Shown here in pieces: positions 12,501 through 63,936 of a stretch of DNA of 64,000 nucleotides; positions within the stretch are counted from its first letter, which is position 1, and every line of letters starts with the position of its first letter. Below the pieces are notes generated by a model, which worked only from the letters and a program-made list of their open reading frames with translations, did not search any database and was not told where the DNA came from. The stretch is from Antennarius striatus. Taxonomy: Eukaryota; Chordata; Actinopteri; Lophiiformes; Antennariidae. The translations under genes and the position numbers were made by a program. The stretch lies in the NCBI RefSeq assembly GCF_040054535.1, contig NC_090794.1:427501-491500 (forward strand), given 5' to 3'.

Positions 12501-15500
12501 TCTGACTGGGATGCACCCCCCACCCGCCTGGCCCCCCCATACAGTGGATTCCTCCACCGGTTAACCTGAGAATAAAACCAGTTTAAGCAGGACTCAGGCT
12601 GGAGCAGGGGGGTGGAGTCAGGCTGCGGTGGGGGGGTGGAGTCAGGCTGCGGTGGGGGGCGGGGTCAGTGTGTTACCTCGGGGCTCTTGCGGTTCTGGGG
12701 GATGCGCTGGTCCGTCTCCTTGGTGGCGAAGAAGCGAGTGCAACCCCTGTTCAGGTACTGGAAGACAGGAAACACAGAATCACGTCACCCTCTGGACCGG
12801 AACCGACCCATCAGAACCCCATCAGAAGCTGATCAGAACCACATCAGAACCCCATCAGAACACGATCAGAACCCCATCAGAACAAGATCAGAACCCCATC
12901 AGAACCCCATCATAACCTGATCAGAACCCCATCAGAACACGATCAGGACCCCATCAGAAGCTGATCAGAACCCCATCAGAACCCCATCAGAACACGATCA
13001 GAACCCCATCAGAACCCCATCAGAACCTGATCAGAACCCCATCAGAACCTGATCAGAACCCCATCAGAACCCCATCAGAACCTCATCAGAACCCCATCAG
13101 AACCCCATCAGAACCCCATCAGAACCTGATCAGAACCCGATCAGAACCTGATCAGAACCTGATGAGAGCATGATCAGAACCTGATCAGAACATGATCAGA
13201 ATCTCATCAGAACCCCATCAGAACCTGATCAGAAGCTGATCAGAACCCCATCAGAACCTGATCAGAAGCTGATCAGAACCCCATCAGAACCTGATCAGAA
13301 CCTGATGAGAACATTATCAGAACCTGATCAGAACCTGATCAGAAGCTGATCAGAACCCCATCAGAACCTGATCAGAACCCCATCAGAACCTGATCAGAAC
13401 AAAGTCAACCCTTGTTTGTGTGTCTCTCCCAGGAACCAATCACTGGGCCCGGTCATGTGTGGGGGCGTGGCCCTGGACGTGGTTCTGCTGGGCTTGTGGT
13501 TCTGACCATCTGGAGCCCCGGAGGGAGCAGATGGACAGAAACAGAACCGCTCCATCGGGGGGGTGAAGGGGGCCACAGCGCCCCCCTTCACCCCCCCTCT
13601 ACATCCTTTATCCTACTGACTGACGGGAGCCGATCGCTGATCAATAACTCTGATGGACAGCTGTGACCTCATCAGGAACACTCATAATGGTGGTAGATAT
13701 CAGCCCCACCCCCGGGGCGTCGAGGATGGGGGGAGGTTTGGCTGGTTACCGTGGAAACGGATCCCCGCATTGATACGTCGTTTAAATTCCCCCAGACAGG
13801 AAACGACTCCCCCCCCCCACATCAAACGCTCCCGGTCACTGCTCCGGGTAATCTGATTACTCCTCAGGTAAGACGTCCTGATCGACCCTGAACGCACCCC
13901 CCACCCCCCCTAAGGAAACGCAATATAAGGACTCCATCACGAGCGCTGAGTCGCAGCTCCAACACCATCAGCACTGAATCTCCTTTATTGGCCCGGGGGG
14001 GGGGCAAGTTCTGGATGTATGGGGCCATTAGGGGGGGGGGGGGCAATAAGCTACAGCAGGACACGGGGGGGAGTCGGGGAATGACGCAGGTGAGTGAAGA
14101 ACGACCATGGTGACTCAGCGATTCTCCCTCAACAACCAGGAGGCGTGGCCAAGGGTCGCCACGCCCACAGCGACTCAGCAACAACAGGTGAGTCCAGTCA
14201 GCTGACCACACCTCCATGGTGAACCCTGACCCAAAGCAGCAGGTTCACGAGGTGAAACAGTCCAGGTTCACGTAGTGAAACAGTCCAGGTTCACACAGTG
14301 AAACAGTCCAGGTTCACACAGTGAAACAGTCCAGGTTCACACAGTGAAACAGTCCAGGTTCACACGGTGAAACAGTCCAGGTTCACACAGTGAAACAGTC
14401 CAGGTTCACACAGGGAAACAGTCCAGGTTCACACAGTGAAACAGTCCAGGTTCACACGGTGAAACAGTCCAGGTTCACACAGGGAAACAGTCCAGGTTCA
14501 CACAGTGAAACAGTCCAGGTTCACGAGGTGAAACAGTCCAGGTTCACACAGTGAAACAGTCCAGGTTCACACAGGGAAACAGTCCAGGTTCACACAGTGA
14601 AACAGTCCAGGTTCACACGGTGAAACAGTCCAGGTTCACGCAGTGAAACAGTCCAGGTTCACACAGTGAAACAGTCCAGGTTCACACAGTGAAACAGTCC
14701 AGGTTCACGCAGGGAAACAGTCCAGGTTCACGCAGGGAAACAGTCCAGGTTCACACAGTGAAACAGTCCAGGTTCACACAGTGAAACAGTCCAGGTTCAC
14801 ACAGTGAAACAGTCCAGGTTCACACAGTGAAACAGTCCAGGTTCACACAGTGAAACAGTCCAGGTTCACGAGGTGAAACAGTCCAGGTTCACACAGTGAA
14901 ACAGTCCAGGTTCACGCAGTGAAACAGTCCAGGTTCACACAGTGAAACAGTCCAGGTTCACACAGTGAAACAGTCCAGGTTCACACAGTGAAACAGTCCA
15001 GGTTCACGAGGTGAAACAGTCCAGGTTCACACAGTGAAACAGTCCAGGTTCACACAGTGAAACAGTCCAGGTTCACGCAGTGAAACAGTCCAGGTTCACA
15101 CAGTGAAACAGTCCAGGTTCACACGGTGAAACAGTCCAGGTTCACACAGTGAAACAGTCCAGGTTCACGAGGTGAAACAGTCCAGGTTCACACAGTGAAA
15201 CAGTCCAGGTTCACACAGTGAAACAGTCCAGGTTCACACAGTGAAACAGTCCAGGTTCACACAGGGAAACAGCCCCCCCATACACACTCTTTAACACAGA
15301 GCCCATCAGCTGATGGGATCCATCAGCCCCCCCCCAGCCGTACCCTGAAGGTGTCTGGGGGCCCCAGGTGGAGGCGGAGCCTGGCGTCCTCGGGGGCCCC
15401 GGCACACAACCGGTAGAAGATGTGGTAGTTCCTCTCCTCGGGCCCCTGCCTGCAGATCCTGGACTTCTCCAGCAGGTAGTGGGACACGAACCCCCCCACC

Positions 15501-61400: not shown

Positions 61401-63936
61401 CTGTTTCACTGCGTGAACCTGGACTGTTTCACTGTGTGAACCTGGACTGTTTCACTGCGTGAACCTGGACTGTTTCACTGCGTTAACCTGGACTGTTTCA
61501 CCTCGTGAACCTGGACTGTTTCACTACGTGAACCTGGACTGTTTCACTGCGTTAACCTGGACTGTTTCACCGTGTGAACCTGGACTGTTTCACTGCGTGA
61601 ACCTGGACTGTTTCACTGCGTGAACCTGGACTGTTTCACTGCGTGAACCTGGACTGCTTCACTGCGTGAACCTGGACTGTTTCACTGCGTGAACCTGGAC
61701 TGTTTCACCCCGTGAACCTGGACTGTTTCACCCCGTGAACCTGGACTGTTTCACCCCGTGAACCTGGACTGTTTCACCCCGTGAACCTGGACTGTTTCAC
61801 CCCGTGAACCTGGACTGTTTCACCGTGTGAACCTGGACTGTTTCACTGTGTGAACCTGGACTGTTTCACTGCGTGAACTTGGACTGTTTCACTGCGTGAA
61901 CCTGGACTGTTTCACTACGTGAACCTGGACTGTTTCACCCCGTGAACCTGGACTGTTTCACCCCGTGAACCTGGACTGTTTCACCCCGTGAACCTGGACT
62001 GTTTCACTGCGTGAACCTGGACTGTTTCACCGTGTGAACCTGGACTGTTTCACTGTGTGAACCTGGACTGTTTCACTGTGTGAACCTGGACTGTTTCACT
62101 GCGTGAACCTGGACTGTTTCACTGCGTTAACCTGGACTGTTTCACTGCGTGAACCTGGACTGCTTCACTGCGTTAACCTGGACTGTTTCACCGTGTGAAC
62201 CTGGACTGTTTCACCGCGTGAACCTGGACTGTTTCACTGTGTGAACCTGGACTGTTTCACTGCGTGAACCTGGACTGTTTCACTGCGTGAACCTGGACTG
62301 TTTCACTGCGTGAACCTGGACTGCTTCACTGCGTGAACCTGGACTGTTTCACTGCGTGAACCTGGACTGCTTCACTGCGTGAACCTGGACTGTTTCACTG
62401 CGTGAATCTGGACTGAGGGTTCCTCACCTGGGGATGGAGGCTGGATCCTGGCCTGGAGCGACGGGGGCTTCTTGGCGTCGGGCCCCGGGGCCTCTGGCGG
62501 AGGCTCCTCCCCCCGCTCCACCTGACACTCGTAGGCGAACAGGTACTGGATGTACTGCTTCTTCAGGGAGGAGGCGGAGGTGCTGGACGTCCCCACGTTC
62601 AGCTGGGAGGACAACTCCCTCCACTTCTTGTTCTTGTTCACCTGAGGGGGCGGAGTTTTACTCGTGATCTCTGAACAGTTAGCATTAGCGTTAGCTGGGC
62701 GTCAGCCCCCAGTCTCACCATGGCCAGGCCCCCTATGTCCCTGACGGCCAGGTAGAGGCGGCACAGGTCCAGCGGCCTCCTGCCCACGGCGGGGAGGGCG
62801 GGGACGGGCGTGCCCCGCCCTTCCATGAAGCTCAGGTAACGTTCCACCCACGCCGCCCGCTCGGGCTCCGCCCCCATGTCGTACAGCCGGGTGATGCTCT
62901 CGCCTGTCAGGGTGGGCAGGCTGGCCTTCTGGAGATGGGGGAGAGGGGAATGACATGATGAAACGTGGCCGACGCCCATCAGCTGCTTGGGGCGTCGCCC
63001 CTCACGACGGGTTCAGACGGGGTGGAGGCCACCGCGCCCTTCAGGTGACATCACCATCACAACAACCACAACACCACACGATGGCTCCGCCCACACAACC
63101 TTCCTCTCGTGGCATGATATCACGGACACACACACACTTGTGGGCGGGGCACTTACAGGGCTGATGGATGACGTCCGGGGCCTGGGGGGGCCGCTAATGC
63201 TATCGCCGTCCTCCCCGAGACAGGAGGACAGGGGGGAGGGGGTGGGGGGCTGGGACACACACTGAGAGCTGTGGGTGTCCTGTGACACACACACATACAC
63301 ACACACACACACACACACATTAGCTTACAACTGGGCATGCTAGGTAGTTAGCTTCAGATGCTAACATTCAGAGGGCAGGGTCAGCATCAACCCGATTGGC
63401 TGACCGCTGGGGGGTGGGGCCTGAGGTTGTGGGTGTGGTTGGGGCGGTGCCAGAGGGTGAGAGTCTGTCTGATTCTACAGAACCCGGCGCATTCAGAGGG
63501 TGAACCCTGCCGCATGCATTCAGAGCAGGCCAGTGCCGAAGAAAGGCATGATGGGAGCTGGGGTCACTGGCAGAGCCATCGGCCACTGTGATTGGTTAGA
63601 ACAGCCGGGGAACCTACCTTCCGTTTGGGCGGATCGGGGGCGGGGCCGGTGCCGTCTTTGCCGAACTCGACTCTCTGCGTGGCGTCTGGATGAGCTCCGC
63701 CCCCTTCCGCCTGCATCATCACGGCGCCTGGGAGAGAAACAGTGATGTCATCAACAAAAGCCCGGACGCTCCCGAAGTACCCCCCCGATCGTGCAGAGCA
63801 ATGCCCACCTGAGGGGGCGGAGCTGAAGGGGCGTCCCTGGGGGGTCATCCTCCCAGAGTTGCTTCCTGGTTGCTGGGCGTACGCGCCTCCTGGGACCACG
63901 CCCCCCATCGCTGCCACACCCAGGTAGCCGCCCTGC
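55406..63936 (-). CDS. arid1b: ARID1B, BAF (SWI/SNF) complex subunit, 5' part beyond the window
   Basis: DNA-binding subunit of the BAF chromatin remodeller. Fourteen exons join in phase (about 1260 residues): 63809-63936, 63618-63727, 63157-63279, 62719-62928, 62428-62641, 59126-59252, 58866-59038, 58646-58766, 58478-58576, 58304-58382, 57478-58189, 57256-57386, 56463-57024, 55406-56397. The ARID domain spans exons 62719-62928 and 62428-62641 ([47 protein letters not shown]). Next come [29 protein letters not shown] and [10 protein letters not shown], and the C-terminal BAF250 region (TPEAW-like [53 protein letters not shown]), ending LFKIGRS. ARID1B rather than ARID1A is supported by the TMEM242/ZDHHC14 neighbours. 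The exon at 56463 could instead end at 56469, a 6-base in-frame alternative donor. Confidence 0.95.
57027..57134 (+). repeat. (GAG/GAA)n polypurine tract at an arid1b acceptor
   Basis: On the minus strand a TCC/TTC tract ends cctcctcctcag directly at exon 56463-57024. It encodes spurious poly-Glu and Arg-rich frames on plus. Confidence 0.96.
57418..57463 (+). repeat. (TG)n in a 91-bp arid1b intron
   Basis: Occupies about half of the intron between exons 57478-58189 and 57256-57386. Confidence 0.95.
59574..62415 (+). repeat. 23-bp minisatellite, largest array (about 123 units)
   Basis: Unit GTGAACCTGGACTGTTTCAC followed by three variable bases (TGC, CCC, TAC, TGT, CGC and others). It fills most of the 3.2-kb arid1b intron between exons 62428-62641 and 59126-59252 and stops about 12 bases inside the donor at 62427. 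The same family occurs at 33788-34214 and, inverted, at 14242-15272. Internal blocks of variant units are duplicated (see findings). Confidence 0.98.

Follow-up and report, generated by a model that had tools for sequence, protein, structure and literature searches.

A 23-bp repeat at three places in the window

The stretch analysed here (the window) covers 64 kb of the Antennarius striatus genome (contig C19:427501-491500, GC content 55%), in an assembly of 548 Mb in 42 contigs. It holds three arrays of a 23-bp tandem repeat, whose unit consists of GTGAACCTGGACTGTTTCAC and a variable triplet. The arrays comprise 44, 19 and 124 units, the first in inverted orientation (Table 1), and are minisatellites, defined by tandem units of about 10-100 bp. 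Open reading frames (ORFs) and family matches place exons of a myosin-VI motor on the minus strand to either side of array 1, and minus-strand BAF250_C and ARID exons of an arid1-type gene to either side of array 3. We take this last gene to be arid1b, and the CortBP2-domain ORF beyond array 2 to be filip1. The genes found are vertebrate in kind, and the ORFs agree with the gene settings given in a preliminary description of the window, made from its letters alone.

That description also reported one unit at three loci, one of them inverted, with a common 20-base core and variation mainly in one triplet. Tandem Repeats Finder (TRF) and core matching bear this out. Of the 110 rows that TRF returned for the window, three correspond to the 23-bp arrays. 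With up to three mismatches, the core matched 44 times on the minus strand and 18 + 123 times on the plus strand, within the window exclusively at these three places; a single look-alike with five mismatches lies at position 34428. Core substitutions affect 5 of 860 sites in array 1, 0 of 340 in array 2 and 16 of 2440 in array 3, the variation being mainly in the triplet. The three positions were wrongly described as unlinked, as together they span no more than 48 kb of contig C19.

Arrays 2 and 3 have a common start, GTGAACC, and a common end, CTGGACTGAG, whereas array 1 has different edges, at unit positions 12 and 9. Array 3 contains two internal repeats of eight units, longer than any in 200 shuffles (best, seven). 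Long strings of unit types common to arrays 1 and 3 give a weak signal (observed length reached in 34 of 300 shuffles); those common to arrays 1 and 2 or to arrays 2 and 3 show no excess (242 and 285 of 300). Other minisatellites are dense in the window and, simple repeats aside, self-comparison showed the 23-bp family to be the only one that recurs as a shared array.

Table 1 Repeat arrays and neighbouring features, in window coordinates
Feature	Position	Strand	Description
Array 1	14240-15272	minus	TRF period 23, 44.9 copies, 94% matches; between myosin-VI motor exons
Array 2	33788-34214	plus	TRF 18.6 copies, 93%; upstream of CortBP2-domain (filip1-like) ORF; one 22-bp unit, TTTCAGGCGTG
Array 3	59574-62415	plus	TRF 123.6 copies, 94%; between ARID and BAF250_C exons; 31 CCC-triplet units
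CortBP2-domain ORF	35745-38612		Downstream of array 2
40-bp tandem repeat	46450-47333		22 copies, 94% matches; dyad CCTACAGTAGG within unit
Direct repeat	32800-32922 and 35430-35545		123 bp, 87% identical; brackets start of filip1-like gene region and array 2
Other minisatellites	3685-4444, 12806-13400, 24886-25426, 42497-42766, 7759-8275		Several with 11-12-bp units

The unit belongs to a dispersed family seen mostly near contig ends

Searching the whole genome for the core, as the preliminary description had suggested, yielded thousands of exact matches (3073 + 1948 = 5021 in the 548-Mb assembly), while the reversed-pattern control yielded 0 + 0. The description had allowed that the unit might be confined to these three loci, with no common flank. 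Instead, it occurs at many separate loci, some of which have a flank in common, and is a dispersed repeat family. Its letters were not found in the literature searched (one library).

We grouped the matches listed by hand into 51 array places on 14 contigs, of which three on C24 may be one cluster. Among these matches, 46 of the 51 places are no more than 2.5 Mb away from the end of a contig, where 22% would be expected under a uniform distribution; a further four lie at 2.5-5 Mb, and one is deeper (C6, 17.5 Mb). On all 14 contigs, the places listed are confined to one half. Since several contigs start with CCCTAA or TTAGGG repeats, contig ends are in part near true chromosome ends. The biggest array region among the matches listed spans about 18 kb of unit matches (C1:2067763-2085358), within which the internal spacing recurs. 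A 22-bp variant, TTTCAGG[C/T]GTG, is found on C5, C10, C11, C13, C14 and C19 (100 of 160 matches listed). It also occurs at the left edge of L092 and L094, and thus may be an old edge form rather than a traveller.

The unit sits at the edge of an interspersed element

Homologous right flanks (best E value 2e-13) occur at five loci initially located through the unit (L014, L019, L071, L086 and L088); four of these flanks align from no more than about 35 bases off the array. The flank of L088, used as a query together with 14 bases of unit, matched 19 places besides itself at 68-82% identity, 13 of them from query base 1 or 2. We read the junctions at all 17 new places and found units lying against the flanking sequence, hereafter the body, at 16 (10/10 and 6/7), in numbers from one to seven or more; at L111 there was no unit against the body.

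Because the L088 query held part of the unit, we ran a body-only query. This found at least 40 places, and junctions were read at 25 of them (16 known before and 9 new). Units adjoin the body at 19 of the 25, numbering 1 to 27. The nine new junctions provide a less biased rate, with units at three (L115, L116 and L120). The unit thus sits at the edge of an interspersed element, meeting the body at unit position 14.

The body consensus is about 330 bp long. Twelve copies are 68-90% identical to it, with a mean pairwise identity of 0.687 over 66 pairs, a divergence which indicates that the element is old. Its extent varies: three copies (L101, L104 and L019) end within profile positions 120-128, while others reach 277-329. 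Bodies are less bound to contig ends than arrays, with 21 of 39 within 2.5 Mb and some far inside. On the array side, the left flanks of 25 loci included no pair with common sequence abutting both arrays. An Rfam search of eight loci gave no match and thus revealed no head resembling a tRNA or 5S RNA in them.

Copies of the body conserve a motif, GTGCATTGTGGGTAA, that may resemble a ZNF143-type site. As a tag it is unsafe alone, since it occurs with one mismatch at window position 3598 (minus strand), away from any array. A match of the R1 model in L010 (E 0.0056) covers this motif and was not counted as a carrier. CATTGACATTAGATNCTGTCT is likewise unusable as a tag by itself, with 2 exact matches, and 8 at two mismatches against 6 in the control.

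Array edges, triplets and signs of local spread

Among arrays picked regardless of their edges, 7 of 15 have GTGAACC as their left edge, where even phases would give about 0.65, and 10 of 14 have a right edge within unit positions 11-16, where about 3.7 would be expected. The full edge table, which includes loci found through the edge pattern, has 13 of 39 at position 1 and 11 of 35 at position 14. The edges of arrays 2 and 3 (start GTGAACC, end GGACTG) fit the carrier. The preliminary description had read the common end of arrays 2 and 3 as a hint of an ancestral boundary. Both do end in CTGGACTGAG, but with six exact places genome-wide (GTGAACCTGGACTGAG, 4 + 2 against 0 + 1 in the control) it is too rare to be a general boundary of arrays, and we rejected it as such. 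A resemblance between AGTGGCCCC of array 2 and AGTGGCACC of L019 is followed by no body profile match and is not claimed as a link.

Variation within units is concentrated around the triplet. Across 31 arrays, position 23 was polymorphic in 25, position 21 in 20, position 20 in 17, and positions 22 and 1 in 15 each, as compared with 2-8 arrays for each of the remaining 18 positions. In TTTCAC-CGC-GTGAA, the sole CpGs fall at positions 21-22 and 23-1, C to T and G to A are the commonest changes at these positions, and the CpG-decay forms TGT, TGC, CGT and CGC are those found on 8 to 12 contigs. Variation in the triplet is thus for the most part decay of these two CpGs. The inverted repeat TTCAC-NNN-GTGAA that had been pointed out around the triplet is present, although nothing we found requires it. 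Outside the triplet the unit is uniform: the array consensus equals the core exactly in 28 of 31 arrays, and terminal 14-mers beside 15 bodies show 4 mismatches in 210, far below the divergence of the bodies. Arrays at L103 and L115 have another consensus.

Rare triplets are shared locally. Across 55 loci (which include at least one duplicate pair, L013 and L034 being the same array), CCC occurs exclusively in arrays 2 and 3 and at L097 (C19, 327.5-328.7 kb), suggesting local spread from array to array between these neighbours. TAC occurs in all three window arrays and at L083 (C10), and AGC at L010 and L035, both on C1. Elsewhere, two arrays 11 kb apart on C5 (L075 and L076, at 26.03 and 26.04 Mb) have a common right flank and represent a local segmental copy. 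Three arrays 2-3 kb apart on C24 (9841499, 9844485 and 9846668) have an identical eight bases ahead of the first unit, a local duplication with flank.

Origin of the family

On this evidence, the minisatellite family to which the arrays belong was probably dispersed by an old interspersed element of transposable type, carrying the unit at one edge, and amplified near chromosome ends. Such an element would have inserted together with its edge unit, a seeding step of which body and unit are seen outside the window. The edge unit, whose ancestral form may have been TTTCAC-CGC-GTGAA with a triplet then varying mainly through CpG decay, would have been amplified where it lay, through slippage or unequal exchange, chiefly in sub-terminal regions, while at most array loci the body would have decayed, disappeared or been truncated. 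Arrays may also have been copied to nearby sites on one chromosome end, which is most likely the direct source of the three window arrays.

Several observations weigh against this history. The body profile has no match in the window up to E = 1, nor does model R1 up to E = 5; the three window arrays are thus body-less, and we infer their seeding from loci elsewhere. The carrier is described here from its body of about 330 bp and its array-side edge. Six of the nine new body-only junctions had no unit, which may mean that not every copy of the element acquired one. The 34 arrays for which both edges were read showed no flanking direct repeat of 4 bp or longer, and no duplication of the kind expected of a DNA transposon or MITE was seen at array edges. 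The apparent conservation of the unit is partly built in, because most loci were found by an exact core or part-unit query. Position 20, variable in 17 of the 31 arrays, lies outside any CpG. Among 106 core-variant unit types, 92 are private to one array and 11 occur on more than one contig, which points to mostly local evolution and makes exchange between chromosomes look rare. Two unit-less bodies, L117 (C1, 12.14 Mb) and L119 (C7, 16.86 Mb), have another common upstream sequence, as judged by eye; these are perhaps the element before the unit expanded.

For the window itself, seeding by a mobile carrier, gene conversion or segmental copying had been proposed. A carrier exists elsewhere in the genome, as does local segmental copying (L075 and L076), but no carrier body was recognised at the window arrays; for these, copying between neighbours on C19, with CCC and TAC triplets in common, has a probability no lower than that of direct seeding.

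The element could also be read in reverse, the array then being the tandem 3' tail of a dead retroposon lacking long terminal repeats and the body-less arrays extreme 5' truncations. The position of the array at a single edge, flanked on its outer side by unrelated DNA, and the variable length of the body would suit such an origin. We nevertheless regard it as doubtful: no target-site duplication of at least 4 bp was found at the 34 arrays, three copies stop near one point (profile positions 120-128), unlike random truncation, several body copies have no unit, and the eight loci searched show neither an Rfam match nor a tRNA- or 5S-like head.

Alternatively, the unit may have had a single origin and spread without a carrier, by ectopic recombination, gene conversion and segmental duplication between sub-terminal regions, the body being the chance neighbour of an early array. 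The crowding of the listed array places towards one end of each of 14 contigs, the 22-bp variant on six contigs, the local distribution of CCC and AGC, and the duplications with flank on C5 and C24 are all compatible with exchange of this kind. Unit-bearing bodies, however, are found at sites that have no relation to one another, also in their left flanks, 21 of 39 bodies are within 2.5 Mb of a contig end and some are far inside, most core-variant types are private to one array, and the 22-bp form at the left edges of L092 and L094 may be an old edge form; we therefore think this explanation unlikely.

A bolder version accepts the carrier and supposes that, long after its death, the array spreads alone from one sub-terminal site to another and favours certain ends (GTGAACC at the start, a stop near GGACTG). 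If true, this would describe a body-less, self-spreading sub-terminal minisatellite, whose unit is near-identical across chromosomes though the carrier bodies differ by about 30%. Given the mostly private unit types and the possible age of the 22-bp edge form, we keep carrier-less spread between chromosomes as a speculative and rather improbable reading. Independent birth of the unit at each locus, or misplacement of arrays in the assembly, can practically be dismissed: local birth of arrays is common here, judging by the 110 TRF rows, but one 20-base core at thousands of sites, with none in the control, contradicts an independent origin, and every array is set in its own unique flank.

Spread by the old element, followed by local amplification, would make this a traceable case in which a dead element's short edge unit gave rise to a family of minisatellites at chromosome ends, including arrays inside introns of large genes. 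As body with one unit, body with many units and array alone are found side by side, the order of seeding, expansion and loss can be tested in relatives. The preferred ends, in turn, raise the question of how body-less arrays get placed.

Comparison with known systems

Seeding of minisatellites by transposable elements (TEs) is a known kind of history, of which this family is probably a new example. TE-derived sequences account for 23% of human minisatellites and satellites (PMC3389668), and in these, as here, part of a TE seeds a tandem repeat and local expansion follows. The present case differs in that one short edge unit leads to a family concentrated near chromosome ends, and most of the arrays seen have no body.

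Tetris and its TIR-220 repeat in Drosophila virilis (PMC4079207) likewise combine a tandem repeat within a mobile element with standalone arrays. Tetris, however, is a foldback element with 220-bp units found in beta-heterochromatin, while no inverted termini were seen here, over a body of about 330 bp and its array-side edge. Helitron-associated repeats, such as those of the Pacific oyster (PMC10048060), also occur both in elements and as standalone arrays, and are dispersed along chromosomes; in those the repeats are central in the element, whereas here the array lies at the edge. Finally, the family resembles the model in which satellites are first disseminated and then locally amplified (PMC4935994), with short arrays scattered first and some amplified later. 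That model was inferred from the locust satellitome, whereas in the present family a candidate carrier is seen.

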